A stretch of DNA of 29,433 nucleotides, from the IMG/VR virus record IMGVR_UViG_3300033151_000452, positions 1 to 29,433 of that record, one strand, 5' to 3'. A program made the position numbers and the translations under genes. The notes under the pieces are model-generated. The model made no database searches. It was not told where the DNA came from and saw nothing but the letters and a program-made list of their open reading frames with translations. This document shows, one piece after another, positions 13,005 to 29,433 of this stretch (the stretch's first letter is position 1; each line of letters starts with the position of its first letter). The stretch is from a virus.

Positions 13005-16000
13005 TTAATTTAAATCAACACCTAAAACAGTTAGATAAGAATTTAATAATTTAACTGTCTCTGGAACGGTATCTATATTTTCAATATCATCTGTAACACT
13101 TGCATCTATAAACTTTCTAATATATTCATTTTTTAGATCTGTGCAATCTGATTTAGTTGTTAAAAATTCATGTAAGTTAATAGGGGCGTCATGACCAAGT
13201 AAACACGCTGTTTCCATTTCGCCTAATCTTTGCCCACCTTTATTTTTTCTACCACCTAAAGGTTGCAATGTTCTTCTGGAATAAATACCAATACCTCTGG
13301 CAGCTAATTTTTCTTCAGCTATATGCACCATTCTAAAAAAGTATAGAAAACCAACAGCTATAGTATTTTTAATAAAGGTTTTAGAAATTGGTTCATATAT
13401 TTTATATTCATAATCAGTTTTTGTATATTTTAAAGCTGCTTCAATATGCTCTAACTTACATGATTGAAAAGGAGCTTGAATAATAGTAAATTCATTCATA
13501 AATTCTTTGGTAACTATCTTTGGTAATTGTTCTTTAAATTGTTTATAATACCAATGATCGGTTGTTTGATCTATAATTTTTATAAAACCCAATAGATAAT
13601 CTTTTATTGCTTTTTGATTTACCTTTCGATTTTTAGTTGTACTATCATCTATTAATTTATTTACATCTGAAATAACACGAGATGCTGCCATACTCAAATG
13701 AATTTCATATAATTGACCAATATTCATTCTTGAAATAACGCCCAATGGATTCATACAAATATCAAAGTGTCTACCATCAGGAAGCATTGGCATCTGTTCA
13801 TGAGGAATAACTCTTGATATTGTGCCCTTGTTTCCATGCCTATTAGCAATTTTATCACCAATCTGTATTCGTCTAAAATGAATAGCAAACATTTCTACAT
13901 TAATACCTTCAAGTTTTTCTCTTTTATGTTTATACTTTCCAGTATATTCAAATTTATCAATTTCTTGATCTCGTATAATCTTCTTGGCTTCTTTTTTATC
14001 CATTACTTTCATTAAAACTTTTTGTAAGTCTTTTGCATTATCCGCTTGTTCATCTAATCTTTTTTCTACCCATTCTTTATAAGAAGGAATATCTTGATTC
14101 CATTCATTGCCATATAAATTAACTTCAGCAATTAAGAATTTTTTATGTGATTCTAAAGTTCTTGAATCAGAATAAACTGAATAGTAATTATCAGAATTAA
14201 GTGTTTTTATAATTGCATATGGATCGCCTGATTCTATTGTTTCTAATTCATCAGGTAATGGTTTGTATATATCTTTTTTCAAAGATAATAATATTTTATT
14301 AGGCGGAATATTAAATGATAAATTTTCAAAATGAACTGATGTTAAAATATCATCTTCAACTAACCTATCTGAAATAACAATACTATCCTCATAGTTATGA
14401 CCTGAGTGTATCATAATTCCAGTTAATAAATTCCTACCAATATTAATATTGCCGTTTTTACAAAAATTACTTTCAGCTATTATTTCACCCTTCTTAAATT
14501 TATCACCTATTTTAACATAGATGTTCATAAAATCTACATGTTCAATATAAATTGGTCTGTAAGAAATATTAAAAAGATCAATTTGTTTATCAACATATGC
14601 AACAACAATATATTTTTTATCAATATAAATTACTTCACCATCATTTTTTGCCATTTTAATAAATTGAGTATACTGAGTATATAAACCCTCAGATCCTGAA
14701 CTAATAATAGGAGTATCAAAATTTCTTAACATGATAGCTTGTCTCATTTGTGAACAAGACATTTGTAATCTAGTTTGATCGTCATGTTTCAAAAATGGTG
14801 TCATTGAAACAGGAATAGATATTGGTAATTTATCTTCTATTTGATCTGTAAATTGACCATTTTCATCAAGGTGTACATTTGGAACTAAGCTTTCTAGTAT
14901 ACCACAGTTATCTCTATCAGGAGTATCAACAGGACATATACGACCGAACATACTATCATTAATATCTCTTAAATGTTTTGGTGCATTTTCTCTTTTAAAT
15001 CCACCTTCTCCAAGAATACTAATTCTTGATAATTTAGTTAATTCCTCAATTGGATTAATTGCAAAATTAAATTGTACAACTTCTGAAATATTACAATCAG
15101 ATAATATTTGTGTAGAGTTAATATTAAATTTTGGATTCCTTGTAGTTCTATTTGTATAACATAAATCAAATATAATTTTAGAAATCTTTGCAAGAACTAT
15201 ATATTCAAAAGTTCTAATTCTCTTATTGGTAGTTAATGTATCATCAATTTCTCCAACTTTAAGAATATCACAAATCTCTTCTAATACTGTATCATTTCTT
15301 AAAAACTTGGCGGTTATAACATCTACTTTTGGAATTAAATCTAAAGCGTATAATATATCTAACCCTTTTGATTTAGTATTATATTTAGTATAATATTTTC
15401 CAAGTTCAACAATAAAATCTTCTTCTGAATACCCCTCTGATTCTTCGATATAAAGTTTTAAATCACCACGAAAAATCTCAAATAAATTTTCAGAGTTTGA
15501 ATTTATTTCAGAATTTAATGTAAATTTTTCTTTAACAAATTCAACACCATGATAACAGATCATTATTAATGCTAATGGTACTTTCTTACCCATAAAACTT
15601 AAATGAATATGTGGGAATTCTTTATCTTTCGATATCATTAAAACTGCAACATTGGTTCTAAATTTGATTGAATCTCCTCTTGTTACAACAGGTGTATCAA
15701 ACAATTGAAAAATAGGAACTTTTTGTCTTCCATTAATATAAATATAATTGTTTTCTACCAACTTAGGTATAAAAACACTTAGATCTATTTCATTACGACC
15801 CTTTTGTAGTTTAATAACAATCTTTTCTTTTATTGTTTTTGCTAGCTCTCCAGAGGAAAACCGAGATTCTTTAAGTGATACTTCATTTATTTGAAAACCA
15901 ATCTCTTCAACTGGTTTAACAATCTTTTGTATTTCAGTTAATATATTATCATAATCAATTTGTCTCATTGTGAAAATATTTTTAATGTCATCTTGTATTA

Positions 16001-16025
16001 CTGCTTCGGGATTTATTATTTTCAA
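13005..16025 (-). CDS. rpoB: RNA polymerase beta subunit, undivided (phage multisubunit RNAP)
   Basis: Forms half of the catalytic cleft of a multisubunit DNA-directed RNA polymerase. The 1006 residues carry the main conserved beta blocks in normal order: FGRICPVDTPDRDNCGILES near 357-376, SGHNYEDSIVIS in the middle, NRHGNKGTISRVIP followed by the DGRHFDICMNPLGVISRMNI block near 725-770, and QPLGGRKNKGGQRLGEMETA near 920-938, before the LHEFLTTKSD stretch. Bacterial beta is longer (about 1150-1350 residues), so lineage insertions are absent. The start is TTG at 16025 with AGAGGA 8 bases upstream; the next Met is 19 codons in. The gene follows rpoC, the reverse of the bacterial rpoB-rpoC order. 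Unlike phiKZ or PBS1 type phage enzymes, the subunit is not split. Confidence 0.95.
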   Translation of the reverse strand: MKIINPEAVIQDDIKNIFTMRQIDYDNILTEIQKIVKPVEEIGFQINEVSLKESRFSSGELAKTIKEKIVIKLQKGRNEIDLSVFIPKLVENNYIYINGRQKVPIFQLFDTPVVTRGDSIKFRTNVAVLMISKDKEFPHIHLSFMGKKVPLALIMICYHGVEFVKEKFTLNSEINSNSENLFEIFRGDLKLYIEESEGYSEEDFIVELGKYYTKYNTKSKGLDILYALDLIPKVDVITAKFLRNDTVLEEICDILKVGEIDDTLTTNKRIRTFEYIVLAKISKIIFDLCYTNRTTRNPKFNINSTQILSDCNISEVVQFNFAINPIEELTKLSRISILGEGGFKRENAPKHLRDINDSMFGRICPVDTPDRDNCGILESLVPNVHLDENGQFTDQIEDKLPISIPVSMTPFLKHDDQTRLQMSCSQMRQAIMLRNFDTPIISSGSEGLYTQYTQFIKMAKNDGEVIYIDKKYIVVAYVDKQIDLFNISYRPIYIEHVDFMNIYVKIGDKFKKGEIIAESNFCKNGNINIGRNLLTGIMIHSGHNYEDSIVISDRLVEDDILTSVHFENLSFNIPPNKILLSLKKDIYKPLPDELETIESGDPYAIIKTLNSDNYYSVYSDSRTLESHKKFLIAEVNLYGNEWNQDIPSYKEWVEKRLDEQADNAKDLQKVLMKVMDKKEAKKIIRDQEIDKFEYTGKYKHKREKLEGINVEMFAIHFRRIQIGDKIANRHGNKGTISRVIPHEQMPMLPDGRHFDICMNPLGVISRMNIGQLYEIHLSMAASRVISDVNKLIDDSTTKNRKVNQKAIKDYLLGFIKIIDQTTDHWYYKQFKEQLPKIVTKEFMNEFTIIQAPFQSCKLEHIEAALKYTKTDYEYKIYEPISKTFIKNTIAVGFLYFFRMVHIAEEKLAARGIGIYSRRTLQPLGGRKNKGGQRLGEMETACLLGHDAPINLHEFLTTKSDCTDLKNEYIRKFIDASVTDDIENIDTVPETVKLLNSYLTVLGVDLN

Positions 16026-16088: not shown

Positions 16089-18782
16089 TTAATCAACATA
16101 TTGCCCTTTTAATATTTTATCCATAGCTCCATTATATTGACCTTCATATAATATCCCATTTAGAATAGCTTTTTTAGGATTAGAAAATGCCATAGATAAT
16201 ACCCAACTTTCTTGATTAGGTACGCTTTGTATGCTATGATATTCTGGGGAAATATGTTTTCTATCTTCTATCAATCTCCATTTTTGATGTTTATACCACA
16301 TTAATTGTGCTACGATACATTCATAATGAACATGATATATATTTTTGTTGTAAACACCAAATAGCTTATCAACAATAATTGTATAATCCTTCTCTTCAAA
16401 TTGATGTAGTAATTTAGAAACAGAAGCTAACTCACCAATAATATCTTTTTGTTTCATATCAGAATCTTCACCTTTAATAACAGCTGCTCCTGATGTATGA
16501 AATGTTCTCAATACTAATTGTGTGCCTCTTTCTCCTAATGTTTGTGCAGCTATAATACCTATAAATTTACTATGTAAACTTATATGTAAATCTCCATAAC
16601 ATCTTTTACATACACCATTTGATTTACATAATATTGGAGAACGTATTTGAATTGTTTTATTAACAATATCTTTACAATTTTCTTTTGTTATTTTATATAA
16701 ATCAGTACCATCTTCTTTTAAACACCAGCGATTAACTAACATTCTTGCTTTTAATAAATCATGTACTTCAACTGTTAGTAAATCTTCTGTACCACAATCA
16801 TCTAATTCTGAATCTAATTGTAAATTTGACCCAGTGAATATTAATTTTCTAGATAAGTATCCACTAGTTCCTGTGTTTAAAGCTACATCTAATAAACCTT
16901 TCCTACAACCATAAGTAGAAGTAAAAAATTCTTTTTGATTTAAACCATGTAGTAAAGAATGTTTTATAGGAGTCGGTAAGATTTCCCCATCAAAATTTGA
17001 AAGGAACCCTCTTGCGAAGATAAGTTGTTTTACTTGATCCCAACTTCCACGAGCACCTGATTCAATCATATATGCATATGAAAAGTCTTTTTTTAATGCT
17101 TCAATTATTTTGGGATCTGAAAATGCAATTAATTGATCTCTTACATCTTTCTTTGAAAAAACTTCATCTAATAATTTTGTAGAACTATGTGCATGAAAAT
17201 CTTTCAAAGATAAAGTACAACCATAAAGTGTAGAATATTTAAATCCTACTTTTTTAATTCTATCTAATGTTAAAATTGTTTCTGAAATTGGGTAATTGTC
17301 TTTTATATCATTAAGAATGTCTATTAAACGAGAAGCATCAACAATACCTTCAACTACTGGATAGTCAGTAGGTAATTGTTGGTTAAATTTTGCTCGTCCA
17401 ATTAACATTTCTGTATTTTTATATTTGTATTTAACATCTGAAAAATCTTTAGAAGTAAGGAAATAAATCCCTAAAACTATATCTTGACTTGGTGTAGTTG
17501 TTAAACTCTCATTAGCTGGGCTACTAAGATGAACAGCTACTGATATTTTTTCAATTATTTCTTGTTTCGCTTCTTCTGTAATTGGAATATAAACCGCCAT
17601 TTGATCTCCATCAAAATCTGCATTAAATGGAGGACAAACTAATGGGTGTATTTTAATAACATGTGCTATAGTGACTTTAACTTTAAAAGCTAACATCCCT
17701 ATTCTATGTAAAGAAGGTTGACGATTCAATATACAATATTCATCTTTTGTTATTTCTTTACATAGATTTAATAATACTGGAGATTGTTTTTTAGCACAAT
17801 CTTCAACATAATCTATTGCTTTATTAAGAATTTTAAATTTTCCTAATTGCAATAATCTTTTAGCCAATGGTAATTTATAAAGTTCAAGAACCATTACATA
17901 TGGTAATTTACATTCTTCTAATTTTAAATATGGATCTGGAGATATTACTGCTCTACCAGAAAAATCAATTCTCTTACCAAGTATGTTTCCTCGTATTATT
18001 CCTTTTTTCTTTGCTAATTTTTTAAGCAATTCTGTATATAATTCTTTGACTTTATATTGTATTTGTTTAGAGTAATCGTAATATAATTCTTTATCACGAG
18101 ATACTTCTATAATTGTTTTTTCAATTATTATTTTTTTTGTAAGTATATATTTATAAAGTCTATTAATAGGATCTACCAAATGCCTTGACCCTTGTTGTTT
18201 GCTAGAAACTGGTCTAAGTTCTGGTGGTAAAACAATAACATCACTAATAAGAAAATTATCTATATTTTCAAGAATAATTTCCCATGATTCATTTTCTTCA
18301 GCCATATTAGCAGCAATATCTCCTACTAACACTTGAATAGCTTCTGTCTTTTCCCACTTTTCTGCACCTTGAGGGATATCAGAAGCATCTTTAGTTACAT
18401 GAAATGCCTCATCCTCAACATATAAAATACTTTTATCATTATTCATTAAATCATCTATCATTCTTTTAACTAATTTACCAGCTAATTCAACAAACAAATC
18501 ATATAGTATTGGATTAACTATTTTAATAGGTAATGTAATTTTAGCAAAAGTCGTTCTTCTCATATTACTATTAGTAATTTTTACATTACAAATTTCACAA
18601 ATACTATCTTTCTTAGAAGGACCATGATATATACCACATTGACAAGTATAATTTCTTAAAGGACCAAATATCTGTTCTGAAAATAATCCCTCATGATGAA
18701 ATTTTCTTTTATTAAAAGCTTTTAAAGATGTTACTTCTTCTAAGTTTTCACAAAACTTTTCATAATTTAAAATCTTAGGCAT
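16089..18782 (-). CDS. rpoC: RNA polymerase beta-prime subunit, undivided (phage multisubunit RNAP)
   Basis: Catalytic subunit of the polymerase. The 897 residues include, in order, the N-terminal GLFSEQIFGP and zinc-binding site (C47, C49, C62, C65), and GKRIDFSGRAVISPDPYLKL near 275-294. Next come NRQPSLHRIGMLAFK and the absolutely conserved NADFDGDQ near 387-394, whose three Asp hold the catalytic Mg. The bridge-helix and trigger-loop region runs from GARGSWDQVKQL near 575 to CRKGLLDVALNTGTSGYLSR. A second zinc site lies around CKSNGVCKRCYGDL, followed by IAAQTLGERGTQLVLRTFH near 740. Bacterial beta-prime is about 1200-1400 residues, so this is a compact form. The ATG has AGAGGAA about 9 bases upstream. 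No alpha, omega or sigma gene is visible in the window. Confidence 0.95.
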   Translation of the reverse strand: MPKILNYEKFCENLEEVTSLKAFNKRKFHHEGLFSEQIFGPLRNYTCQCGIYHGPSKKDSICEICNVKITNSNMRRTTFAKITLPIKIVNPILYDLFVELAGKLVKRMIDDLMNNDKSILYVEDEAFHVTKDASDIPQGAEKWEKTEAIQVLVGDIAANMAEENESWEIILENIDNFLISDVIVLPPELRPVSSKQQGSRHLVDPINRLYKYILTKKIIIEKTIIEVSRDKELYYDYSKQIQYKVKELYTELLKKLAKKKGIIRGNILGKRIDFSGRAVISPDPYLKLEECKLPYVMVLELYKLPLAKRLLQLGKFKILNKAIDYVEDCAKKQSPVLLNLCKEITKDEYCILNRQPSLHRIGMLAFKVKVTIAHVIKIHPLVCPPFNADFDGDQMAVYIPITEEAKQEIIEKISVAVHLSSPANESLTTTPSQDIVLGIYFLTSKDFSDVKYKYKNTEMLIGRAKFNQQLPTDYPVVEGIVDASRLIDILNDIKDNYPISETILTLDRIKKVGFKYSTLYGCTLSLKDFHAHSSTKLLDEVFSKKDVRDQLIAFSDPKIIEALKKDFSYAYMIESGARGSWDQVKQLIFARGFLSNFDGEILPTPIKHSLLHGLNQKEFFTSTYGCRKGLLDVALNTGTSGYLSRKLIFTGSNLQLDSELDDCGTEDLLTVEVHDLLKARMLVNRWCLKEDGTDLYKITKENCKDIVNKTIQIRSPILCKSNGVCKRCYGDLHISLHSKFIGIIAAQTLGERGTQLVLRTFHTSGAAVIKGEDSDMKQKDIIGELASVSKLLHQFEEKDYTIIVDKLFGVYNKNIYHVHYECIVAQLMWYKHQKWRLIEDRKHISPEYHSIQSVPNQESWVLSMAFSNPKKAILNGILYEGQYNGAMDKILKGQYVD

Positions 18783-19009: not shown

Positions 19010-19208
19010 TTATTGATAACCTTTCTTTTATCTTTTGTTTAATTTGATCAATATTTTTATCAAATAAATCTCCAATTGTTTGCATTGTTTTTTCATAAAT
19101 TAAATCAACTAATGATCTAGAATTATCTCTGCTTGTCTTAATTACATTATCAATTGTTTCGTCTATTTTTTTATTTATGTCTTCATTCGTTATTTGTTTT
19201 TTCTCCAT
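18990..19208 (-). CDS. Small helical hypothetical protein
   Basis: A 72-residue charged, helical protein (EDINKKIDETIDNVIKTSRD; IYEKTMQTIGDLFDKNIDQI). The ATG has AGGAG 7 bases upstream. It overlaps the E2-like gene before it by 26 bases and the next small gene by 20 bases. The composition is much like its neighbour at 18788, with long amphipathic helices, but I see no clear sequence similarity between the two. Function unknown. Confidence 0.55.
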   Translation of the reverse strand: MEKKQITNEDINKKIDETIDNVIKTSRDNSRSLVDLIYEKTMQTIGDLFDKNIDQIKQKIKERLSINEKSKT

Positions 19209-19551
19209 TAATAAACTCCTGTTTTTTATAGGTTATTTCGTGCCAAGGTGTAAAATAACAATCATCTAAATTAAAACAATATAATATACTATAAATCATT
19301 GATTTAGATTCTTTTGTTATTTTATGGTTTCTTAAAGAATCAGGAATACAAAGTTCCCTTGTTTCTGGGTTTACATTAGGATGCGGTGAGTCTAACAAAA
19401 TAGACTCAATTTTATCATTACATAGTTTAATTGTATAACCTTTAATATTATATTTAAAAGGTAATTCTAAAATTTCATATAATTGTTCTTTAAAAATTAT
19501 TTTTTTTGGCACAATATAAGATATAATTTTTTTATAATCAATTACTATCAT
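19183..19551 (-). CDS. Small E2/UBC-fold-like protein (tentative)
   Basis: A 122-residue protein. After two beta-strand-like segments (YNIKGYTIKLC, KIESILLD) comes SPHPNVNPETRELCIPDSL (55-73). This is laid out like the E2 signature: an HPN turn (H57-P58-N59) followed 9 residues later by a Cys (C68) and an Ile-Pro. In eukaryotic E2 enzymes the pattern is HPN......G.iCl..l. A helical segment follows (ITKESKSMIYSILYCFNLDD). It is translationally coupled (ATGA overlap) to the E1/ThiF-like gene before it, as an E2 would be. If right, C68 would accept a ubiquitin-like protein from that E1. The UBC fold is weakly conserved, so this call rests on one motif plus context. The gene itself is firm: ACAGGAG stands before the ATG. 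Confidence 0.55.
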   Translation of the reverse strand: MIVIDYKKIISYIVPKKIIFKEQLYEILELPFKYNIKGYTIKLCNDKIESILLDSPHPNVNPETRELCIPDSLRNHKITKESKSMIYSILYCFNLDDCYFTPWHEITYKKQEFINGEKTNNE

Positions 19552-20396
19552 GCTGCTCCTGTTTCTGGAATTAATTCTATACTTCTATTAGTTAATGATA
19601 CTACAAAATTATTATAATCTGTTTGTGTTTTTATAATATCAAGAAATTTAATTATAATATCATGACTACTATTGAAAGTATTTTGAGGGATAGTTAATTC
19701 TTCAATAGGATTTAATTTATTCCCAATAAACAATGTCATAGGATAGTTTTTATTAGCATCAATTATAGGAATCAACTTGTCTGATAAATTAACAAATTTA
19801 TTTCCATATTGATGGTTTTCATAAATAATATCATAAGAACTATCCTGTAATTGTTTAATATAATCTAACTCATATTTTTGTACTGTCTGATTTGAAATTA
19901 ATGTGTTAATCGTTTCACTATAAATTAACATAGCTATAATAGATGCAGCTTGTTTTAAATCATTCTTTGTTAATTGTGTTATATATTTTCCATCTCTTTC
20001 TTTTTCGTAAACCACTTTCTTGCGAAAATCGCCTATCAAATATCTTGAGGATATATAAAATCTGGCATTTATTTCTTTTTGTCTTGAGTATGTTACATCT
20101 CGACAATCAATAACCAAATCTGTTTTTGGTATTTCAGTTACACCTTCTTCATATTTATGAGGTGCTGCCCAGACTTGAAGTTCTGGTTTTTTATTTAATA
20201 GTATTTCTTTAAGTGCTAAAGCTTTTGATATATCAATATCAATTTGTCTATAAATAGAATTTTTTAAATTCTTTTGCTCAACAGTATCATGGTCTATAAT
20301 AACAATCTTTTCAATTCCTTCAATATCAGCTACAGCTTCTGCGGTATAACCACCAAGCGTTCCTAAACCAATAATTGTAACACTTTTGTGTTTCAC
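19548..20396 (-). CDS. E1/ThiF/MoeB-like adenylating protein, second copy
   Basis: An E1-superfamily (ThiF/MoeB/HesA) Rossmann protein that would adenylate the C-terminus of a ubiquitin-like protein. The 282 residues show the ATP-binding loop VTIIGLGTLGG (6-16), the acidic pair in IVIIDHDTVE (D35, D37), NLKNSIYR with N43 and R50, and KALALKEIL with K58. These are the usual GxGxxG, D-x-D, N-x-x-R and K of the family. TDLVIDCRD (92-100) fits the strand before the crossover, and C98 is one possible Cys nucleophile. No CxxC zinc pairs are seen. The start is GTG with AAGGAG 9 bases upstream, and the end overlaps the small E2-like gene. It differs clearly from the other E1 in the window (21506-22210), so this is not a recent duplication. 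Confidence 0.85.
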   Translation of the reverse strand: MKHKSVTIIGLGTLGGYTAEAVADIEGIEKIVIIDHDTVEQKNLKNSIYRQIDIDISKALALKEILLNKKPELQVWAAPHKYEEGVTEIPKTDLVIDCRDVTYSRQKEINARFYISSRYLIGDFRKKVVYEKERDGKYITQLTKNDLKQAASIIAMLIYSETINTLISNQTVQKYELDYIKQLQDSSYDIIYENHQYGNKFVNLSDKLIPIIDANKNYPMTLFIGNKLNPIEELTIPQNTFNSSHDIIIKFLDIIKTQTDYNNFVVSLTNRSIELIPETGAA

Positions 20397-20399
20397 TGT

Positions 20400-20951
20400 T
20401 TATTTCTCCTTCATAGATTCTTTTTCATCTGTAAAGAATTTGTTTTCTTCCCCATTAGCTACATTAGGTAAGTAACTTGATTTATATTTAAAAAATTTGT
20501 GAGCTTCAATCATTGGATAGCTAACAGGTAATTTAAAAGAATATAAAGTTCTATTATTAGCTTTGGATATACTAATTGGCATTTTTGGATTTATTTTAAG
20601 TAATTCAGGAATAATTGTAGCTTTAAATTCCTTTTCTTTATCAACCGTTTTAATTTTCATAACTCGAGTGACAAATTCTTCTTCTCTTCCTTCACTTTTA
20701 ATTTTATAAGAATTCGTTTTATGAACAGTAGCTTCAACTGCTCTACCGAATGCTTTATGTTTTCCTTTCTTTTTGATAAAAGAATCTCTAAGTGAACAAA
20801 TTGAAACACCTCTTGCCACTATTTGTTTTTTCTCAGTGTTTAAAAATAAACACGCTGTAAAGATATTATTAGTAAGAGGTGTTGTATATTGATAGAATTT
20901 TATTTTATCAATTTTGTTATTTTCTAAAATCTGATCGATTTCTTGTTTCAT
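20400..20951 (-). CDS. Hypothetical protein between the two ubiquitin-like modules
   Basis: A 183-residue basic protein if begun at ATG 20951, which has GGAG 6 bases upstream; an in-frame ATG at 20963 overlaps that ribosome-binding site and is less likely. The best conserved-looking part is ARGVSICSLRDSFIKKKGKH, continuing into KAFGRAVEA. That pattern, a strand ending in Cys-Ser, a basic turn and a helix with GRA, occurs in small phage proteins of unknown role. Beta segments lie on both sides. It has no E2 or Ubl signature that I can see. It directly follows the strong terminator behind the Ubl gene and is followed by the second E1. It may be a partner or substrate of that E1, but this is context only. 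Confidence 0.55.
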   Translation of the reverse strand: MKQEIDQILENNKIDKIKFYQYTTPLTNNIFTACLFLNTEKKQIVARGVSICSLRDSFIKKKGKHKAFGRAVEATVHKTNSYKIKSEGREEEFVTRVMKIKTVDKEKEFKATIIPELLKINPKMPISISKANNRTLYSFKLPVSYPMIEAHKFFKYKSSYLPNVANGEENKFFTDEKESMKEK

Positions 20952-20963
20952 TATTTTCTCCAT

Positions 20964-21018: not shown

Positions 21019-21513
21019 CTATCCTTTCTGACCGGCTGGTTTAAGAAACTCAACAACATCGCCTTCTTTTAATATATATTCTGAATTAACTTCTTCACCA
21101 TTTACAAGTGGAGTAGATTTAATATCAGCATTCAAGATATCACCAAAGGTATTCAATGCTGCTGTAATAGTATTTCCAACAACTGTAAAGTTACCATCAT
21201 TAGCACCACAAGCCATATAACAAGTAGTTGAGAACTTGTTACCTCTTCTCTCATTAGGTTTGGTCAATCTACTTTTTGCAAAGAAGTTCATTTCATTAAT
21301 TGCTGCAGGACCCGTTTCTTCAACCACTGGTTCTGCTTTAGAAATGGTTACGGAAGCAACACTATTTCTTGTTTTTTGACTTACAAGAATTGCGGCAATA
21401 ACAACATCTTTAGGTTTCTTGGTCATACCAGGAATACCAAGTTCATTTACACATCTTCTTTTAAGTTCTTTTGCTGTGGTTGCCTCTAAATCTGCTTTTG
21501 TATAATTACTCAT
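21019..21513 (-). CDS. Ubiquitin-like beta-grasp protein (PRTRC-C/ThiS-like) with SAP-like N-terminus
   Basis: A 164-residue protein in two parts. Residues 8-46 (DLEATTAKELKRRCVNELGI, then a PGMTKKPKDVVIAAIL stretch) look like a SAP/HeH helix-extension-helix motif, which usually binds nucleic acid. After a linker (about 47-92), the rest is a beta-grasp domain like ThiS, MoaD and the PRTRC C protein. It has strands FTVVGNTI, a helix, LVNGEEV (136-142) and a last strand GDVVEFLKP (151-159), ending AGQKG. The chain ends in Lys-Gly after a flexible turn, as I recall for PRTRC C proteins, so it would need no processing to expose a terminal Gly. It overlaps the E1 gene by 8 bases and is followed by a terminator. 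It is most likely the modifier activated by that E1. Confidence 0.8.
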   Translation of the reverse strand: MSNYTKADLEATTAKELKRRCVNELGIPGMTKKPKDVVIAAILVSQKTRNSVASVTISKAEPVVEETGPAAINEMNFFAKSRLTKPNERRGNKFSTTCYMACGANDGNFTVVGNTITAALNTFGDILNADIKSTPLVNGEEVNSEYILKEGDVVEFLKPAGQKG

Positions 21514-22210
21514 TTCGATTTTTCTCCTGTTTCACTTTTCTAATTTTGGATAATGAAGCCATTGACACTATGTCAAAATAGACTTCGCCCGCTTTTACAT
21601 CATTGTTTATTACTACATTATAAAACGCCCAACACATAATTGTTGCTGCCCCCAAATTTGCAAAATACAACTGAGGTTCAGATTCCGAAAGTTCCTGACA
21701 ACTCATTTCTTCCGGTGATTTATCTGTCGGTGAAGCAATTTCTGGATGGTATGCACATAAGTCGGATGTTAATTCTTTTCCTCCTTGTTTGACATATATT
21801 TGAACATTTCCATCAGTAAAATCATTCCCGCCAGATATAATGGTTATATCATTTAAAGATTTACAATAATTTGATACAACATTTCTACTTTTGTGATTAT
21901 CAAGACATAGAAAAACAATAGATTTCTCTTTAATTATTTCATGAGCATTATTTTCATTGATAAACACGTTTTTATAATCATAAATAATCCTTGGAAATTT
22001 TATAGTAAGTTCACTATATTGCATTTCTGCTTTATCTCCAACACGATTAAACTCTTGTCTTTCGTAATTCTTAGCTTCGTAATAATCTCCATCTACTAAT
22101 AATACATTACATTCGAGATCTTTTGAAAAGTTAAGAAAACGTGATAAACGTCCAGTTAATATTGAACCGATTCCGCCCAAACCGATAATAACTATATTAA
22201 GTTTATTCAA
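21506..22210 (-). CDS. E1/ThiF-like adenylating enzyme of a PRTRC-type cassette
   Basis: Activates a ubiquitin-like C-terminus with ATP and probably passes it to a Cys. Numbered from a TTG at 22210 (234 residues), it has NIVIIGLGGIGS (5-16), VLLVDGDYYEAKNYERQEF with D40/D42, N48, R51 and Q52, and K60 in the position that contacts ATP. EMSCQELSE (C171), followed by PQLYFANLGAATIM, matches the SC...... then FANS/INS-like helix of PRTRC ThiF proteins and gives the likely catalytic Cys. I prefer TTG 22210 over GTG 22219 because AAAGG is then 8 bases away and the overlap with the JAB gene becomes 8 bases, as at the other junctions in this cassette. It has no zinc-binding CxxC pairs. Confidence 0.9.
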   Translation of the reverse strand: MNKLNIVIIGLGGIGSILTGRLSRFLNFSKDLECNVLLVDGDYYEAKNYERQEFNRVGDKAEMQYSELTIKFPRIIYDYKNVFINENNAHEIIKEKSIVFLCLDNHKSRNVVSNYCKSLNDITIISGGNDFTDGNVQIYVKQGGKELTSDLCAYHPEIASPTDKSPEEMSCQELSESEPQLYFANLGAATIMCWAFYNVVINNDVKAGEVYFDIVSMASLSKIRKVKQEKNRNE

Positions 22211-23588
22211 TATTAACACCTTTAGATTTAAATCTTTTTATTAATCCTTCCAACAACCCAGAATAAGTATTTCTTCTTTCTGCAGTTTCAACTGGGGGTT
22301 TAACTTCTGTTTCTTCATAACAAAATGGGCAAATTGGTTTAAATTCATCGAGCATAAAAGTATTTGCACATTTTTTACATTTAATATATATATCTTTTGG
22401 TTCTGCTGGATTAGCTGATTTAACAACTAATGTCGATTCAACCTTTCCAGAATCAAAATTATCTACTTTCTTTTTTTCTTTTTCAGTAATTTCAGATTGT
22501 TTATCTTCTTCTGAAATATCATCAAGTAATATTAAACCTGTTCCAATTAAACAATGTGGGCAAATTTGTTCTTCATCTTTATCAAGATCAACTACTCGCA
22601 AACAATCTTTACAATAATATGAAATAATATCATATTCATATTCATCAACTTTTTGATGAATACAATTCTGACACTTATCAACTTCTTCTGTAATGTCCTC
22701 AATTTTATCAGATTTATGAGAAGCAGCTATATTACGATTTGAATATGGATAACATGGTGTGTGAAGATCTCCACCCCACATCTTATCAATTTCTTTCTGG
22801 TTGTAACTATACATACCAGTATTATATCTTCCGCCATATCCTACATATCTACTAGAATAAGAATATGTTTTCTTTTCAACCAACTTCAACCAATTTTTAT
22901 TAAAAGTTCTTTTACTTGGCGGAACTTTAATTTTAACTCTGATTTTTGGTCCGGCATTATATGTATGATAAGTATAACCATAAGCATTTGTAACAGGAGG
23001 TTTCTCATATTTAAAATCTTCAATGCCAAGAATGTAATCAGTATTTGCATACATTTGTCTAAAACCACTGGCTACAACTGAAGTTGATACTGATGGGAAT
23101 TCATCATTCACATTACCTATTGTAATATGTAATCCATCAAATACTTTTTCATCGGTATCATCAATTCCAGAATGAAACGCTGACATATTAGCATGACTAT
23201 GAATAGTTCCTATCATATTCATATCTTTAAGAGTCATACCTTTATTATAATCACAAGCTGCGCCTGATACTTGCTGAGACGGAACTACAACTTTAAATTT
23301 TTGTGTTTCTTGATTATAGAATAAAAGAATTACAGCTTCTGATTTATGTTCATCATAAACTGCTTTAAAAAACTCATATACCTTTGCAAATAGTGTAGCT
23401 GGAAGTTTGGGTATATGTATTACTGCAGAACATGGAACGTCCTGCAAATCTGGTATTTTATCAACAGGAATTAAACTTTCCATTATACCTAAATTTTTTT
23501 TCATATATATACCGTCTTTACCAACAATATAATATATATCATCTTCGAGTGGGTTAGTTTTCCCATCATGTACTAGTATTTCAAACAT
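22203..23588 (-). CDS. JAB/JAMM peptidase with C-terminal zinc ribbons (PRTRC-A-like)
   Basis: A metal-dependent isopeptidase of the JAB/MPN family, expected to trim the Ubl or remove it from targets. In 461 residues the JAMM motif is complete: MIGTIHSHANMSAFHSGIDD gives H130, H132, S140 and D143 with exact H-x-H-x7-S-x2-D spacing. E84 (SEAVILLFY) is a candidate catalytic Glu. The block from H130 to FDGLHITIGNV (150-160) is also typical of PRTRC A proteins. A Tyr/Gly-rich stretch follows (about 250-275). Then come Cys pairs CQNC, CKDC, CPHC, CKKC and CPFC between about 300 and 430, forming two or more zinc ribbons that could bind target or Ubl. The ATG has GGGAG 8 bases upstream. Overlaps of 8 bases join it to the genes on both sides. 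Confidence 0.93.
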   Translation of the reverse strand: MFEILVHDGKTNPLEDDIYYIVGKDGIYMKKNLGIMESLIPVDKIPDLQDVPCSAVIHIPKLPATLFAKVYEFFKAVYDEHKSEAVILLFYNQETQKFKVVVPSQQVSGAACDYNKGMTLKDMNMIGTIHSHANMSAFHSGIDDTDEKVFDGLHITIGNVNDEFPSVSTSVVASGFRQMYANTDYILGIEDFKYEKPPVTNAYGYTYHTYNAGPKIRVKIKVPPSKRTFNKNWLKLVEKKTYSYSSRYVGYGGRYNTGMYSYNQKEIDKMWGGDLHTPCYPYSNRNIAASHKSDKIEDITEEVDKCQNCIHQKVDEYEYDIISYYCKDCLRVVDLDKDEEQICPHCLIGTGLILLDDISEEDKQSEITEKEKKKVDNFDSGKVESTLVVKSANPAEPKDIYIKCKKCANTFMLDEFKPICPFCYEETEVKPPVETAERRNTYSGLLEGLIKRFKSKGVNIE

Positions 23589-26178
23589 TTACAATACTCC
23601 CTTCATTTATTGGAAATTCAATATTAAATTTTAATTTTACTTTTTTATAAGTACCCAAATAATTTGGCACTAAATTATTACTATATTCTGTTTCTATTAT
23701 ATCTTTTTGAAGCATTCTTGGGCTCAAGAAATTATCAAAATGACAATAAGACTCTTCTTCTTTTGCTCTATTATAAGATATGTGCATTTCTGGAAATGGT
23801 TTTAAATGAGAATTTCTGGATGGATTACCTATTAAATAATGAGAATGGTTTATCATTATTAAATCTCCAGTCTGAACTTTAATTTTATCAACATCTAATC
23901 CAGCAGCAGATAATCTTGACCATGCTTTATGTTCAGATGTAAATATTTCGAACTTTTCTAAAACATCTTCATACCATAATGTACACCCATTAGAACACAA
24001 TACAAGAGGTTGCCCACCTGTATCTGTTAAAAATCCAATGATCATATTAATATCTTTCTTTGGAAAATTACAAATTCCAGGAACTTTTGATCTAATCTTA
24101 TCAGTGTACTTTAATTTATCAAAACCTTTAGTGATATGTCTTACTTTTCCTATTTTAATATTATTACCGATTATAAAAGGAACAATTTCCACTTTCCCAG
24201 ATTCTTCTTTTAATTTAAATGATAGTTTTCGATCTTGTATATTAATGATAAATTCTACAATCTCTTTATATACTAACATATTTTGTGGGTTTACCCAATC
24301 TGCTACAACAACCATATCTCCTTTAGAAAAATCTATATCAGAATTAAATCCAGATATATGAAGCTTCTTATCTTTAATTATTTGTTTTTCTAAATTTGAG
24401 AAGTTAATATTTCCAGAGATTCTACACTTATCATTATCATAGGTAAAACCTTCTGCTGTTTTGATAAGTTTTCCAACTTTAGAATCATCAACTCTGTTGA
24501 CGCAAACACACAATCTTCCTCCATTATAAAAATATGGGTTATCATCTATAACCTCAATATCTTCTAAATCAAATACATTATTTGATAATTTATCTAATGT
24601 TACTGGATTAGATTCTATTGCATCTATTTTTTTCATTTTAATGCTTAAATCATTTGCAAAAGTTCTGATAAGAAAATCATCAAACTTCATTACTAAGGAT
24701 GAAGTTAATATTGCATTATTCTCTGAACTATAAAAAGTAACTAAATAAGGTTTATCTTTTGATATTTTTGTACCTTCAAATACTACAGGCGCATTTGGAT
24801 CTCTTAATTCTCCTTCAATTTTATCTAAATTATAAAAATTTAAACCGATAAATTTAATCTCAATAGTATTATATGGAGTACGTCTTATATATTCAACTTG
24901 TTTATAAATATTATTATGGTCTATTAAAATATCACCAGTTTTTATAACAGTACCATTATTTAATTTAGCTTCGTCTATGTCTCTAACAGCTTTTGCTTGT
25001 TCAAGAATAAATTCACGAACTTTTTTTGTAAATTTATATTTAAAAAACTTACCGTCATTTCTTTCAACTTGCATATATTCAATTATGCCTGTCCCATTAT
25101 CCGTTCCGAGAAATGAACTAATAAAACAAAAAGCTGATTTATGTTTAATATAAAATGGATCTCCTACGTGTAAATAAATCTCATTATTATTTCTTGGTCG
25201 TATACCATTTGTAATATCATAATATAAAGGTTGAGATATATCAGCTCCATTTCTTCTTTTTTCAATAACAATTTCATCTGTTCTTACTGGTTGGTTCATA
25301 GCAATTTTAACTTTATTGAAAAAAGATGTTGTGGTAGATGAATTATACATTTCTTTAATATGATTTATTTTTTTACCAATAGTTCTCGTATCAGGAATCC
25401 AATCAACATTATATATAAAATTAGGTTCATTTTTTGTCATAACTTCCCATTCAACATATGAAGCTACTCCATCAACTTTTTTATTTTGATACTTTTGAAG
25501 ACCATACATATAATCTTGATTATAACTAGCATGCCAAAAAGTATCTATTACATTTTGTATAGCTTGTTGATCTGTGTTAGCTCTGCGTGATGCATGACTT
25601 CCCATGCAAATTTGTTCGCTATCATCTATATTACAAAAAGGTGCTGCTAATAAATAATCATCTTTGCCCACTAATGGTGCTAAACGAAGATAAATCCAAG
25701 TGCTTAAATATTGATTATTACGATCTAATGAAATAATAAATATTACATATGGCATAGATAATGAATATGATCTTATATTATCATATTCTTCTTTTTTCCA
25801 GTTATTTTGTTTTTCATTAAAATATTTACTTATATCTGGATCATTAAGTTTTCCAGCATTTTCTAAATAATTAAGTTCTAAACTAACTGGTAACATCATT
25901 TTTATAGTTCTAATTGAAGGTTGTTCTTCTATAACATAAAGCTTTTTATTGCCGAATTGTTCAAAATATTTACATTTATCAGGTAAAATTCTAAGTTGTT
26001 TTGAATAAAAGGAACGATCAAATTTTTCTTGAAAATTTCTCATTGGCATGCTTTTTTTCATTTGAACTGGTACAGAACAAGATTCTTCTTTATTATTATT
26101 TTCTTCATTTACATTAGAAGAAGAATATAAATGGATACGGTCATAATTAATTCTTATTTCATCATTCAATTCTCTCAT
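23581..26178 (-). CDS. Giant E2-like protein (PRTRC-B/Prok-E2 type) with long beta-rich C-terminus
   Basis: An 865-residue protein whose N-terminal quarter looks like the E2-fold PRTRC B family. Around 140-220 it reads MPYVIFIISLD..., YLRLAPLV, YLLAAPFCNIDDSEQICMGS (175-194), then a helix with DTFWHASYNQDY. This matches the family layout: a strand, aPf.Nv...g.iC.G, then W..f..S.f. N183 would stand in for the HPN Asn, and C191 would be the catalytic Cys. PRTRC B proteins are about 230-260 residues, so roughly 600 extra residues are unusual. They hold repeated 'GD(I/P/L)(F/I/M)' strands (HVGDPFYI, KTGDILID, SKGDMVVV, QTGDLIMI), suggesting several small beta-barrel modules, perhaps for target binding. 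It is the first gene of the cassette and overlaps the JAB gene by 8 bases. Confidence 0.78.
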   Translation of the reverse strand: MRELNDEIRINYDRIHLYSSSNVNEENNNKEESCSVPVQMKKSMPMRNFQEKFDRSFYSKQLRILPDKCKYFEQFGNKKLYVIEEQPSIRTIKMMLPVSLELNYLENAGKLNDPDISKYFNEKQNNWKKEEYDNIRSYSLSMPYVIFIISLDRNNQYLSTWIYLRLAPLVGKDDYLLAAPFCNIDDSEQICMGSHASRRANTDQQAIQNVIDTFWHASYNQDYMYGLQKYQNKKVDGVASYVEWEVMTKNEPNFIYNVDWIPDTRTIGKKINHIKEMYNSSTTTSFFNKVKIAMNQPVRTDEIVIEKRRNGADISQPLYYDITNGIRPRNNNEIYLHVGDPFYIKHKSAFCFISSFLGTDNGTGIIEYMQVERNDGKFFKYKFTKKVREFILEQAKAVRDIDEAKLNNGTVIKTGDILIDHNNIYKQVEYIRRTPYNTIEIKFIGLNFYNLDKIEGELRDPNAPVVFEGTKISKDKPYLVTFYSSENNAILTSSLVMKFDDFLIRTFANDLSIKMKKIDAIESNPVTLDKLSNNVFDLEDIEVIDDNPYFYNGGRLCVCVNRVDDSKVGKLIKTAEGFTYDNDKCRISGNINFSNLEKQIIKDKKLHISGFNSDIDFSKGDMVVVADWVNPQNMLVYKEIVEFIINIQDRKLSFKLKEESGKVEIVPFIIGNNIKIGKVRHITKGFDKLKYTDKIRSKVPGICNFPKKDINMIIGFLTDTGGQPLVLCSNGCTLWYEDVLEKFEIFTSEHKAWSRLSAAGLDVDKIKVQTGDLIMINHSHYLIGNPSRNSHLKPFPEMHISYNRAKEEESYCHFDNFLSPRMLQKDIIETEYSNNLVPNYLGTYKKVKLKFNIEFPINEGSIVNV

Positions 26179-26180
26179 TA

Positions 26181-26555
26181 TTATTCACCTATTAATATTT
26201 TATAATGTTTAGCGTAAGTTGTTAAAATTTTATCCGATCTACTATCATTGATTTCCCAAACTTTTTTTCTTTTAATTATTTGAGGATCTTCACTATCTAT
26301 ATTAATTTTTGTTGATGTGAATAAAATAACTAAATACACATCTTCACTTTCTCGTTCTAGCCCTAAAAAACCAACCTCACCCTGTAAACTACCAGGCACT
26401 TCTAAAACTAAAAATAAGTTTGGACCGAATGGTCTCTTATCTGGATATTTTTGGTTTGGTTTTTCTTCTTCATAAATTGTATCACACAAGACTCTAATTG
26501 TTTCCAAATTATCATCCGTTTTAATTTCATTTAATAATTCACGTAAAACAGTCAT
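26181..26555 (-). CDS. Hypothetical protein upstream of the E2-like gene
   Basis: A 124-residue acidic protein. An N-terminal helix (MTVLRELLNEIKTDDNLE) precedes a beta-rich centre (LFLVLEVPGSLQGEVGFLGL, DVYLVILFTSTKI). No family is recognised. The ATG has AAAGGA 7 bases upstream. The stop lies just before the E2-like ATG, so it is in the same transcript and may belong to the ubiquitin-like cassette. It has no Cys-based or JAB-like motif. Confidence 0.6.
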   Translation of the reverse strand: MTVLRELLNEIKTDDNLETIRVLCDTIYEEEKPNQKYPDKRPFGPNLFLVLEVPGSLQGEVGFLGLERESEDVYLVILFTSTKINIDSEDPQIIKRKKVWEINDSRSDKILTTYAKHYKILIGE

Positions 26556-26572: not shown

Positions 26573-26914
26573 TTAATATTTTTTCTTTGAGATAACATAC
26601 CTCATGTTTTTGGTATCCATCCATTCAACTCTTTCAAATGGAACAGATCTCCAACCGTTTTTATCTAAATCATAAACGCGCATAATTTTACTTTTTTGAA
26701 TTAACTGTAAGATTCGTTTAATATCTACAGTGTTTGGTTTATGTTCATTAGGGATTTTAGTAAAATCTAAAGTACATCTCATAATACGAACACTCTTATC
26801 TAATTTAATAAACCTTATAACAACTTCTTTTTCATCAAATATCTTTTTCCAGAATTGAACTGCATTGGTTATTACCTCAGTTTCATCCTGTTCTTCTCTT
26901 GTCGGTTCTGCCAT
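26573..26914 (-). CDS. SH3 beta-barrel fold protein (DUF2693-like)
   Basis: A 113-residue protein. The run VVIRFIKLDKSVRIMRCTLD, followed later by KIMRVYDLDKNGWRSVPFER, matches the small SH3-like barrel proteins of phages annotated as DUF2693. Their pattern is v.f.K.dG..R.mrcTL....iP and later .vyDl...gWRsf....i. They are common in large phages and their role is not known. The first 20 residues are acidic (EEQDETE). The ATG has AAGGAG 7 bases upstream. It overlaps the upstream gene by 32 bases and belongs to the same dense run. Confidence 0.75.
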   Translation of the reverse strand: MAEPTREEQDETEVITNAVQFWKKIFDEKEVVIRFIKLDKSVRIMRCTLDFTKIPNEHKPNTVDIKRILQLIQKSKIMRVYDLDKNGWRSVPFERVEWMDTKNMRYVISKKKY

Positions 26915-27344
26915 CTATTTTCTCCTTAATGTATTTCAAATCTTCAAATAGTAAATCTGTAGTCCGTGTAAATGTTTGAGCTTTACCATAAATCTTTGGA
27001 TCTATTTGTTTAAGATAATAATGAAAAATATTTGTTTGTGATTTAGCTAAAGGTGTAAAAGCAACTATATCATATAATTTTTTAATTTCTTTTGACATCT
27101 GAGTTACAACTTCTTCATATTCTTCAACTCTTGGACTAACACAAGAATAAAAATACAATTTATCCAAAAGAGGTTTGAAATCTTTAAATGTTATTAATTC
27201 AGATATTCTATTTAATCTAAGTTTACTTTGCTTTCTCATTTTATCCACGGTACCAACTTTAAATAATTTAACTGGCTTATTATCAATTATTGCTTCATAA
27301 TATTTATCATGTTCTTTTATTAATTCAATTTTAATATCATTCAT
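26883..27344 (-). CDS. Hypothetical protein
   Basis: A 153-residue basic protein. I start it at ATG 27344, which has AGG 6 bases upstream and overlaps the GIY-YIG gene's end by 8 bases; a longer version from 27377 would lie inside that gene. An N-terminal beta stretch (IKIELIKEHDKYYEAIIDNK) is followed by helices (LRLNRISELITFKDFKPLLD; VTQMSKEIKKLYDIVAF). The C-terminus is basic. No family is recognised. Confidence 0.6.
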   Translation of the reverse strand: MNDIKIELIKEHDKYYEAIIDNKPVKLFKVGTVDKMRKQSKLRLNRISELITFKDFKPLLDKLYFYSCVSPRVEEYEEVVTQMSKEIKKLYDIVAFTPLAKSQTNIFHYYLKQIDPKIYGKAQTFTRTTDLLFEDLKYIKEKIDGRTDKRRTG

Positions 27345-28332
27345 CCCTAACCTCCCTCCATCTTTTCTTGGAAGCATTTCCTATTCTTTTTTTAGCTTCA
27401 TTAGTATGATTATAACCACAACCATGTTTATTACCTTTTTGAGCTTTTCCGATTTTATTCTTTTCTTCTTTAGTTTTGATTCTACCCATAGATGTAATTT
27501 TTAATTTTCTTCTTCTATTATATTCAATTAATAATTTTTTAAGACGAAGTAGATTTAATCTCCAGATAGTTATATCTCTAGTACCTTCTTTATAACAAAA
27601 CCATCCTTTATGATGGAAATTTTCACCCATTGCTACTCTTTGTAAAGGTTCAACAGATAAATTAAAATTTTTACAAAAGTTTTTTAACCTGTTAGTTTTA
27701 TATTCTTTACCATTTGGATTAATTAGTTCCCATGTTAAACTATGAGCTTTTATAGAAGCTTTACTTTTTTGTTTTTTAACATATTTTGTATGTTGAGATT
27801 TGATCCTATTTTTTCTTTTTGTGATATCAGACCATTCTTTCTTCATAAGAACACTCATCTTTTTTCTAATCTTCTTACTTCTAAAAGCATGTTTTAAAGA
27901 TTTACTTTGCTGAATATGATTTTCAATTTTAGACCATCTCTTTTTTAAACCTTCTTTATTTCTTTTTCTCCAATTTTCAGTTATAATCCACCCTGTAAAA
28001 CCTTCCCCGCCTGGTTGTATATTTGAAAGAGGCCCAGTTAAATTAATTATTCTGCCTATAGTTTTAATTAATAATTTTTCTAGTTCAAATGCTTCGTTTT
28101 CAAATAAATATTGTTTATATTTTATTATAATAGGTTTTAATTGAAGATTTAATAACTCTTCGATTATTTCTGTTTTAATAATATTACATTTATCTCGTTT
28201 TAAATGATCATGTAATCTAGTTCCACAACCTTTTCCTATATAAAAAGGTTCATATGAAAATTTATAACCTTTATAATCATATAAACCTGGTTTAATAGGA
28301 TTTAAATAAATATAAACATAATATTTATTCAT
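27337..28332 (-). CDS. GIY-YIG homing-type endonuclease (SegB-like)
   Basis: A free-standing homing endonuclease. The N-terminal GIY-YIG domain shows YYVYIYLNP (4-12), then FYIGKGCGTRLHDHL (30-44) with the conserved Arg (39) and His, and ELEKLLI with a candidate catalytic Glu. The rest is very basic. NUMOD-like DNA-binding repeats include WRKRNKEGLKKRW, a helix-turn-helix-like part ending in FHHKGWFCYKEG, and GRIKTKEEKNKIGKAQKGNK near the C-terminus. The 331-residue length fits SegB-type proteins. The start ATG overlaps the radical SAM stop by one base and lacks a close ribosome-binding site, so translation is probably coupled. It interrupts an otherwise unrelated gene run, as expected for a mobile gene. 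Confidence 0.92.
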   Translation of the reverse strand: MNKYYVYIYLNPIKPGLYDYKGYKFSYEPFYIGKGCGTRLHDHLKRDKCNIIKTEIIEELLNLQLKPIIIKYKQYLFENEAFELEKLLIKTIGRIINLTGPLSNIQPGGEGFTGWIITENWRKRNKEGLKKRWSKIENHIQQSKSLKHAFRSKKIRKKMSVLMKKEWSDITKRKNRIKSQHTKYVKKQKSKASIKAHSLTWELINPNGKEYKTNRLKNFCKNFNLSVEPLQRVAMGENFHHKGWFCYKEGTRDITIWRLNLLRLKKLLIEYNRRRKLKITSMGRIKTKEEKNKIGKAQKGNKHGCGYNHTNEAKKRIGNASKKRWREVRDE

Positions 28333-29369
28333 TATTTATTTCTTATCTCCTTATGTATTAGATTATCGATATTATCTTCTTGTTTTGAAATAATTAGGCT
28401 CATGATAGGGCAACTCCAATTACACCCTCTACAATGATTTCTTTTATCAATACTTAAAAACTCTTTATAAGCAAAATGTAATTCACCATTATCCATAATA
28501 GAATCATAAGCTTTCATGTTAGGTATCATAATTCCACGAATTCTCAAACACATGCGCAAGCTTCCATCTGCATCAATTGTCATATTATGAACATTGTTTT
28601 CTAGTCCACAATCTAAATTAGCTGGAAGGATATCATATATCTTTGGTAGCAATGTTTCCGCCATATGCACATTTAGTTTATCATCAACAATTTTTTGAAA
28701 TATCTCTTTAACTTTATCTGATTTGGGAACTAATATACTTTCATCTGTTATAGTTGAAAAATCATAATATTTACTCTTTGCTATATCAACAGTAGTTATA
28801 TCACTATTAATCCCCATGTCAGTTAACATTTTAACAAGATCATAAAGATAATCAATACTTTTATTATCAACTGTAATTTCAGCAACAATATCTTTTATCT
28901 TTCCTTTGAATTGTTGTAGTCTCTCTAAACCTGCAACACATTTTTTATATCTATCACTATCTTTATCTTCAGATTTATCTAAAATCATTGGATCAACTGA
29001 TGAAGTTATCCCTTCAATATGTTCTACATCATTTAATAATTTTTCAATTAATGGTTGTATTGCATCAGAATTATTTGTAATAATTGTATAATGAATATTT
29101 TCTTTATTACAAAAGTTTATAATCTCTGCTAAGTCTTTTCTAATTAAAGGTTCACCTCCATAGAAAATATGAAAAGCATCTGGGTTATGTAATTTAAGTT
29201 TCTTTAAAGTTTCAATCACATATTCAGTAGACATTTCTTGGTGATGGTAATGTTTCATATTAGGATAACTTAATGGTTTATCATAATCTTTAACTATTCT
29301 ACAATAAGAACAATGCAAATTACACTTGCGGGTTAAAAGCCAACTAACTATTTGTATTTTATTTTTCAT
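28332..29369 (-). CDS. Radical SAM protein with SPASM-like C-terminus
   Basis: A radical S-adenosylmethionine enzyme. Counting from ATG 29369 (345 residues), the iron-sulfur motif is CNLHCSYC (C16, C20, C23). The glycine-rich FYGGEP follows as expected near 65-70. The C-terminal part has CGLENNVHNMTIDADGSLRM, then CLR, and later HCRGCNWSC. That Cys distribution is typical of SPASM or twitch domains, which carry extra iron-sulfur clusters in peptide- and protein-modifying enzymes. It is not QueE, which has a different Cys spacing. ATG 29369 has AGGTGGAG just upstream; a GTG at 29378 is possible but overlaps that site. It overlaps the preceding gene by 11 bases. The substrate is unknown: a phage or host protein is the likely class. 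Confidence 0.88.
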   Translation of the reverse strand: MKNKIQIVSWLLTRKCNLHCSYCRIVKDYDKPLSYPNMKHYHHQEMSTEYVIETLKKLKLHNPDAFHIFYGGEPLIRKDLAEIINFCNKENIHYTIITNNSDAIQPLIEKLLNDVEHIEGITSSVDPMILDKSEDKDSDRYKKCVAGLERLQQFKGKIKDIVAEITVDNKSIDYLYDLVKMLTDMGINSDITTVDIAKSKYYDFSTITDESILVPKSDKVKEIFQKIVDDKLNVHMAETLLPKIYDILPANLDCGLENNVHNMTIDADGSLRMCLRIRGIMIPNMKAYDSIMDNGELHFAYKEFLSIDKRNHCRGCNWSCPIMSLIISKQEDNIDNLIHKEIRNK

Positions 29370-29433
29370 AATCTCCACCTAAAAATTTTATTAAAGATTC
29401 AGTTTTTTCTTCAGCCATTGAATATATAGTTGA
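29359..29433 (-). CDS. C-terminus of an unidentified gene (cut by the right edge)
   Basis: A frame open from the right edge to TAA at 29361-29359 encodes 24 residues ending IKFLGGDYEK. It overlaps the radical SAM start by 11 bases and carries that gene's ribosome-binding site. It is probably the end of the upstream operon member. Being directly before a SPASM-type enzyme, it could be a substrate, but too little is visible to say. Confidence 0.5.
   Translation of the reverse strand, partial: STIYSMAEEKTESLIKFLGGDYEK

Follow-up and report, generated by a model that had tools for sequence, protein, structure and literature searches.

A predicted ubiquitin-like conjugation module inherited alongside the RNA polymerase genes of large uncultured phages

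Introduction

Do large phages with an RNA polymerase of their own also carry a ubiquitin-like conjugation system, and what would they tag with it? The question is raised by a 29,433-base IMG/VR virus record, IMGVR_UViG_3300033151_000452 (the whole of which is called the window), where four coupled open reading frames (ORFs) on the minus strand, at 21019-26178, encode a ubiquitin-like protein (Ubl), a ThiF-type activating enzyme (E1), a JAMM peptidase (JAB) and a conjugating enzyme (E2), with overlaps of 8, 17 and 8 nucleotides (nt). The phage context described in a first-pass annotation of the sequence is confirmed by a terminase gene at 2965-4617 and by the genes of two RNA polymerase subunits, beta-prime and beta (Table 1). 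That annotation had assigned the E2, JAB, E1 and Ubl genes to a single coupled operon, a reading borne out by the overlapping ORFs and by catalytic residues that are invariant in 44-47 distinct homologues. It had also taken the four genes for a stand-alone cassette, which proved too narrow, since the conserved block also includes a second E1-like/E2 pair (19183-20396). In our view the block is probably a module for ubiquitin-like conjugation that belongs to the core of large phages with their own RNA polymerases and is passed on vertically.

Bacterial E1-E2-JAMM-Ubl sets are known chiefly from defence systems and from plasmid cassettes of obscure function. Bacterial E1/E2/JAB/Ubl cassettes have been known since 2006, in a survey in which phages appear only with a tail-assembly Ubl and JAB (PMC1779556). 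No phage-encoded E1-E2-Ubl conjugation cassette is described in the open-licence literature searched, a scope that leaves subscription papers and preprints outside, and ubiquitin goes unmentioned in a 2026 review of jumbo phage biology (PMC13282480). What is new here is a constant position within a phage core genome, a Ubl fused to a Rho_N domain, a long-tailed E2, and a further E1/E2 pair whose E1 bears a putative Ubl at its C-terminus.

Gene order and inheritance of the module

Scanning viral contigs with the first E1 (E1a) and the second (E1b) yielded 70 loci, some sharing a contig; where individual loci are named below, they carry L-numbers. About 45 distinct loci from uncultured phages, in records of up to 277 kb, keep the gene order, which in all loci that are long enough reads radical SAM (rSAM), WYL_2, g26181, E2a, JAB, E1a, Ubl, an optional gene, E1b, E2b, (short genes), RpoC and RpoB, with folE2 usually following RpoB in the conserved block. 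The most distant locus, L073, has JAB, E1a, Rho_N-Ubl, E1b and RpoC/RpoB, and upstream of them an unlabelled ORF of 808 amino acids with an E2a-like N...C.G pattern; no clear E2b was seen there.

Among 44 distinct loci, the protein distances of the module genes correlate with those of RpoB (Mantel r 0.58-0.83, p 0.001), and the median ratio of nonsynonymous to synonymous substitution rates (dN/dS) ranges from 0.13 for E1a to 0.38 for E2a, with 0.12 for RpoC, ratios that are rough because dS is near saturation. Fixed synteny, the correlation with RpoB and purifying selection together imply that the module is old, vertically inherited and functional. When 84,980 bacterial and archaeal genomes were scanned with E1a, a single match was returned, on a 3.8-kb contig of a Lentisphaerae metagenome bin, which is probably a stray phage fragment, so that the scan points to no cellular home or host.

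In five large relatives a second, larger RNA polymerase beta subunit is encoded elsewhere in the record, so that the module adjoins one of two phage polymerases. The beta subunits of the lineage are about 1000 and 1370 amino acids long, and the beta-prime subunit encoded here has only 897. Two beta subunits are also found in phages with separate early and late polymerases.

Enzymes of the first half

E1a matches the ThiF family (PF00899, 3e-16, 59.7 bits against a cutoff of 28.1), and its GxGGxG, D43-x-D45, R54-Q55, K63, D107 and C174 are invariant in 46/46 homologues; the GLGGIGS, D-x-D, RQ and catalytic-type Cys recognized at first pass are among these positions. The JAB matches Prok-JAB (PF14464) at 25.9 bits, with a cutoff of 25, and has PRTRC_A as its best NCBIfam match (3.7e-11). 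Its JAMM residues H130, H132, S140 and D143, reported earlier as a complete motif, are intact together with E84 in all 47 JABs, and its C-terminal tail is Cys-rich and zinc-ribbon-like.

In E2a, residues 134-234 match Prok-E2_D (PF14460, 27.5 bits, cutoff 25), and N183 and C191, which form the E2-type motif of the earlier description, are invariant in 44/44 homologues. Conservation of these E1a, JAB and E2a motifs goes well past what chance would give. The AlphaFold model (AF2, pLDDT 83) places a helix, three strands, the active-site loop with N183 and C191 and a further helix at 114-216, so that the UBC fold expected within residues 100-230 is found by both profile and model. Beyond the UBC-like region the protein continues for about 560-600 residues, forming many beta-rich modules modelled with fair confidence. 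A PDB fold search with the whole model gave SPT5 (KOW domains) and tandem Tudor proteins as the best, though weak, matches (prob 0.35-0.6), and no E2 ranked among the leading matches, since the search is dominated by the beta-rich tail; against a viral fold library the model matched a 241-residue phage protein (prob 1.0, TM 0.58 by target length), the other matches being unnamed.

The Rho_N-Ubl and its maturation

The first-pass annotation had named the four enzyme and Ubl types correctly and had overlooked, besides the E2 extension of about 600 residues, that the Ubl begins with a Rho_N domain, which we detect in 41 of 45 homologues (best 3.4e-15). Taken alone, the C-terminal part of the window protein is weakly similar to ThiS/TGS/MoaD, below cutoff (ThiS 0.0019); in profile searches of the homologues, TGS is matched by 34/45 and ThiS by 27/45. 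The tail in the lineage is (A/S)G-x-KG, and the Lys-Gly ending noted before is present in the window as AGQKG. In 13 of the 45 Ubls further residues follow the KG (C, R, YK, DRKGC or, in L006, VILTK), and the Ubl of L073 has a 16-residue C-terminal extension. As the JAMM enzyme is always present, the simplest reading of the extended tails is peptidase maturation by this enzyme, which, to judge from the sequences, probably matures the extended Ubls and presumably also deconjugates the Ubl.

Rho_N proteins without a Ubl part are encoded just before E2a in some relatives (L063:4352-4714, L066:4236-4676, L071:4240-4677 and L028:6277-6603); they could possibly act as a decoy or an anchor for Rho_N-Ubl.

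The second E1/E2 pair

E1b also matches ThiF (PF00899, 9e-18, 64.7 bits, above cutoff), and its AlphaFold model (mean pLDDT 88.9) has a ThiF-like fold with ThiF 1zud as the best Foldseek match (9.6e-9). Residues G10, G12, G15, D35, K58, D97 and C98 are invariant in 48/48 homologues; because C98 lies in a D-C-[RT]-D stretch common to MoeB/ThiF, its invariance is no evidence for a catalytic Cys. An extra small domain at about 215-282 (pLDDT ~88) has the order strand-strand-helix-strand-strand at residues 220-277. It is highly variable, yet it ends in a near-invariant T-G-[AGS]-A, with G280 in 46/48 and A or S at 282 in 48/48 sequences; in the window the end is G-A-A, not G-G. The model suggests that this domain may be a fused Ubl with a free tail.

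The E2b gene overlaps E1b by 4 nt. Its product has an H-P-N-x8-C motif of which H, N and C are retained in 45/45 homologues and P in 43/45, at a divergence down to 17% identity with the window protein. When the E2b profile was compared with the PDB, E<1 was reached by three sequences only, all of them E2 enzymes aligned at the HPN..C loop (E 0.08-0.57, none significant alone), and matches to E2s alone are not expected by chance. Human UBE2D2 also aligned at this loop, as a lead only (P 0.002, with a probability of only 13%). The motif makes E2b a putative E2 enzyme.

In the E1 tree, a well supported branch (98/97) has E1a, a clade of its own (99/94), on one side together with the PRTRC-type, plasmid and other phage ThiFs, and E1b, which is a distinct clade (100/99), is placed with MoeB/ThiF. 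The two E1s combined in these phages are therefore of different ancestry. Profile-profile comparison found nothing between E2a and E2b, nor between E1b or its tail domain and the Ubl; by this test the paired domains are not recent duplicates.

Relation to known systems

Among the closest known systems is PRTRC (A, B, C and ThiF with D, E, F and ParB, on plasmids and integrative elements), with which the first-pass annotation had linked the four genes. Kinship stands, and membership is largely refuted. On an Azonexus plasmid the PRTRC order is E-C-F-B-A-ThiF, and the E2-JAB-E1 of the window corresponds to B-A-ThiF; the JAB and E1 share profile affinity with PRTRC, and a Ubl lies in the operon. 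The differences are that no E, F, D or ParB was found, that the phage Ubl is encoded after E1, has a Rho_N domain and is not matched by PRTRC C, that the phage E2 has its extension of about 600 residues, and that a second E1/E2 pair is present, in a phage host. By gene order and profile scores, the first half is a relative of PRTRC rather than a PRTRC system.

Among the operons catalogued by Iyer, Burroughs and Aravind (2006), type 6d combines JAB, E1, E2 and a single Ubl with a C-terminal Gly and resembles the phage set in having four separate genes for E2, JAB, E1 and Ubl, but it includes a JAB-N domain and an alpha-helical partner where the phage set has Rho_N-Ubl, a giant E2 and a second pair (PMC1779556). 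Bil (BilABCD) and type II CBASS (Cap2/Cap3) share E1, E2 and a JAMM peptidase, and Bil a Ubl as well; in contrast to BilD, a double E1, and Cap2, an E2-E1 fusion, the E1 and E2 of the window are separate single genes with a single-domain E1a, and they belong to a phage core and not to a defence island. No match to a CD-NTase family was found among the neighbouring genes scanned. Fusions of Ubl and ThiF in one chain are also on record, the known ones with a ThiS-type Ubl at the ThiF N-terminus (PMC1779556); the putative Ubl of E1b is C-terminal, which leaves its tail free.

Family-D E2-JAB-ThiF sets of like adjacency and order occur on Bacillota plasmids (Cytobacillus pN497-ZHONG, L085) and in the jumbo phages KLEB27-3, Arash and D69; they differ in having an E2 of about 230-255 amino acids and no E1b/E2b nearby, and a Rho_N-Ubl homologue was not found in the five records searched from this group. 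The occurrence of relatives of the first half in cultured phages (Vibrio D69, Bacillus KLEB27-3 and Salmonella Arash) makes the question directly testable.

Two annotations in these phages may be mentioned. Three ORFs upstream of the E2 in Vibrio phage D69, gp307 (L075:3262-4053, annotated as hypothetical) is built from a unit of about 60 residues that occurs three times in tandem, with TGTKG at the end of each copy; by eye it reads as a polyubiquitin-like precursor. In Salmonella phage Arash, gp246c-248c (L076:1519-4539) include the E1 and E2 of the E2-JAB-E1 set labelled 'structural protein'; the basis of the label is not stated, and it is a hint at virion association.

Proposed function and alternatives

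The most likely function is reversible Ubl tagging of phage proteins of transcription or of the virion, by reactions that are predicted from the conserved residues. The Rho_N-Ubl precursor, where extended, would be trimmed by the JAMM enzyme to its Lys-Gly end; the Ubl glycine would then be adenylated by E1a and passed, probably via C174, to C191 of E2a, which would put the Ubl on target proteins. Targets would be chosen or held by the C-terminal beta-barrel array of E2a together with the Rho_N domain of the Ubl, the likeliest of them acting in phage transcription or virion assembly, and the JAMM enzyme would take the Ubl off again. A Rho_N domain on the Ubl, the SH3-like neighbour gene and the adjoining RNA polymerase make a transcription target attractive, and a virion target is the other candidate, suggested by analogy with the labels in Arash. 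E1b and E2b would make up a further branch that runs parallel to the first or acts as its partner. If conjugation occurs, phages use ubiquitin-like tagging for their own life cycle. In a bolder, tentative form of this idea, two independent E1-E2 branches, one using the Rho_N-Ubl and the other an E1 with a Ubl of its own at the free C-terminus, might be essential core machinery that modifies the phage's own RNA polymerase (or virion) complexes; if true, this would give a virus a transcription-coupled equivalent of ubiquitin signalling in eukaryotes.

Several points weigh against such a system. The synteny with RNA polymerase may be merely frozen gene order. The beta-grasp fold of the Ubl is a prediction from profiles, the SH3/KOW-like interpretation of the E2a tail is of low probability, profile support for E2b is weak away from the active-site loop, and the C-terminal domain of E1b resembles no known Ubl in sequence by profile comparison. 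Furthermore, the RQ of E1b is lost (Asn-Ser in most homologues) and there is no separate invariant Cys, so that E1b may only adenylate or be regulatory. With its ATP-site residues kept, and with E1a and E1b always found together, E1b might then be the regulatory half of a heterodimeric E1, as in eukaryotic NAE1-UBA3. We consider this doubtful, given that the neighbouring E2b overlaps E1b by 4 nt, that E1b itself carries a conserved Ubl-like tail, and that relatives of E1a in other phages and plasmids lack a nearby E1b.

The remaining alternatives would give the module another purpose or origin. Counter-defence genes are usually patchy in distribution, whereas this set is intact in every relative examined and follows the RNA polymerase phylogeny; it lies outside any variable accessory region and brings its own Ubl. 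That the module tags a host defence protein, or that its JAMM enzyme reverses host CBASS or Bil conjugation, is on these grounds unlikely, even with the match of E1b to CBASS Cap2-type E1-E2 profiles (1.4e-11) and with the same chemistry at work in bacterial defence (Jenson et al., PMC10097602). We regard as improbable a sulfur-carrier or cofactor pathway in which the Ubl and E1s would act in thiolation in the manner of ThiS/ThiF or MoaD/MoeB, for instance in nucleotide or RNA modification with folE2 and rSAM as partners. The Ubl and E1b are indeed most similar to ThiS/MoaD and ThiF/MoeB, and folE2 and the rSAM gene lie within the block, but such a pathway leaves two E2-type proteins with an invariant catalytic Cys and a JAMM enzyme to be explained, neither a rhodanese nor a sulfurtransferase gene was seen among the genes of the block, and JAB is typical of E1/E2/Ubl operons and absent from thiamine and MoCo pathways (PMC1779556).

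Highly improbable, finally, is the pickup by a phage of a PRTRC-type maintenance cassette from a plasmid or integrative and conjugative element. The shared B-A-ThiF order, the best match of the JAB to PRTRC_A and the place of E1a beside PRTRC-type and plasmid E1s would fit it. Against it, E1a is a clade of its own, and the profile searches against PRTRC A, B, C and ThiF that had been suggested at first pass all stayed far below cutoff or, for C, unmatched: the window proteins scored 42.9 bits with PRTRC_A (TIGR03735, cutoff 101.8), 25.6 bits with PRTRC_ThiF (TIGR03736, cutoff 144.75) and 15.4 bits with PRTRC_B (TIGR03737, cutoff 131.45), and none of 45 Ubl homologues matched PRTRC_C. The ParB-like partner, which the first-pass annotation had not seen in the window either, was not found in 11 large relatives, where two generic matches of 24.5 bits (cutoff 278.6) appeared. 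With every tested model below cutoff and neither PRTRC C nor ParB found, we reject PRTRC membership. PRTRC_D had no match in the 11 large records, the controls being equally silent. A separate helicase search served only as a control that record searches work.

Neighbouring genes

Table 1. Features of the module and its flanks in the window
Feature	Coordinates	Strand	Description
E2a	23581-26178	-	865 amino acids; family-D E2, UBC-like ~114-234, C191 and N183, extra C-terminal part ~300-865
JAB/JAMM peptidase	22203-23588	-	461 amino acids; E84-H130-H132-S140-D143
E1a	21506-22219	-	237 amino acids; ThiF-type, GLGGIG, DGD, RQ, K63, D107, C174
Rho_N-Ubl	21019-21513	-	164 amino acids; Rho_N, linker, beta-grasp-like C-terminal part, end ...EFLKPAGQKG
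g20400	20400-20963	-	Optional gene between Ubl and E1b; same place in about 1/3 of relatives
E1b	19548-20396	-	Second ThiF-type E1 with putative C-terminal Ubl-like domain, end PETGAA
E2b	19183-19551	-	122 amino acids; compact second E2-like protein, H57-P58-N59 ... C68
g26181	26181-26555	-	Small conserved protein coupled to E2a; kept in nearly all relatives whose upstream flank is intact
WYL_2 / SH3-like small protein	26573-26914	-	PF10902, 27.4 bits; conserved by synteny
Radical SAM (rSAM)	28332-29378	-	PF04055, 4e-13; head of block in nearly all relatives
RNA polymerase beta-prime (RpoC)	16089-18782	-	Pfam Rpb1 domains; directly downstream in all module-bearing relatives
RNA polymerase beta (RpoB)	13005-16025	-	Pfam Rpb2 domains; synteny

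The top matches of the rSAM protein, none of which reaches its cutoff, are to PapB/PqqE-type peptide maturases and viperin profiles. At the other end of the block, folE2 (GTP cyclohydrolase IB, 11891-12733) adjoins the RNA polymerase genes in most relatives. Homing endonuclease-like genes are found at 27337-28332 (GIY-YIG/NUMOD3) and 11365-11976 (HNH); the former separates rSAM from WYL_2 in the window only and is thus probably a recent insertion. A protein encoded at 26883-27377 precedes WYL_2 in the window and lies between Ubl and E1b elsewhere (L027:11243-11854, L063:9449-9922), which raises the question of whether it is a partner of the module that has moved.

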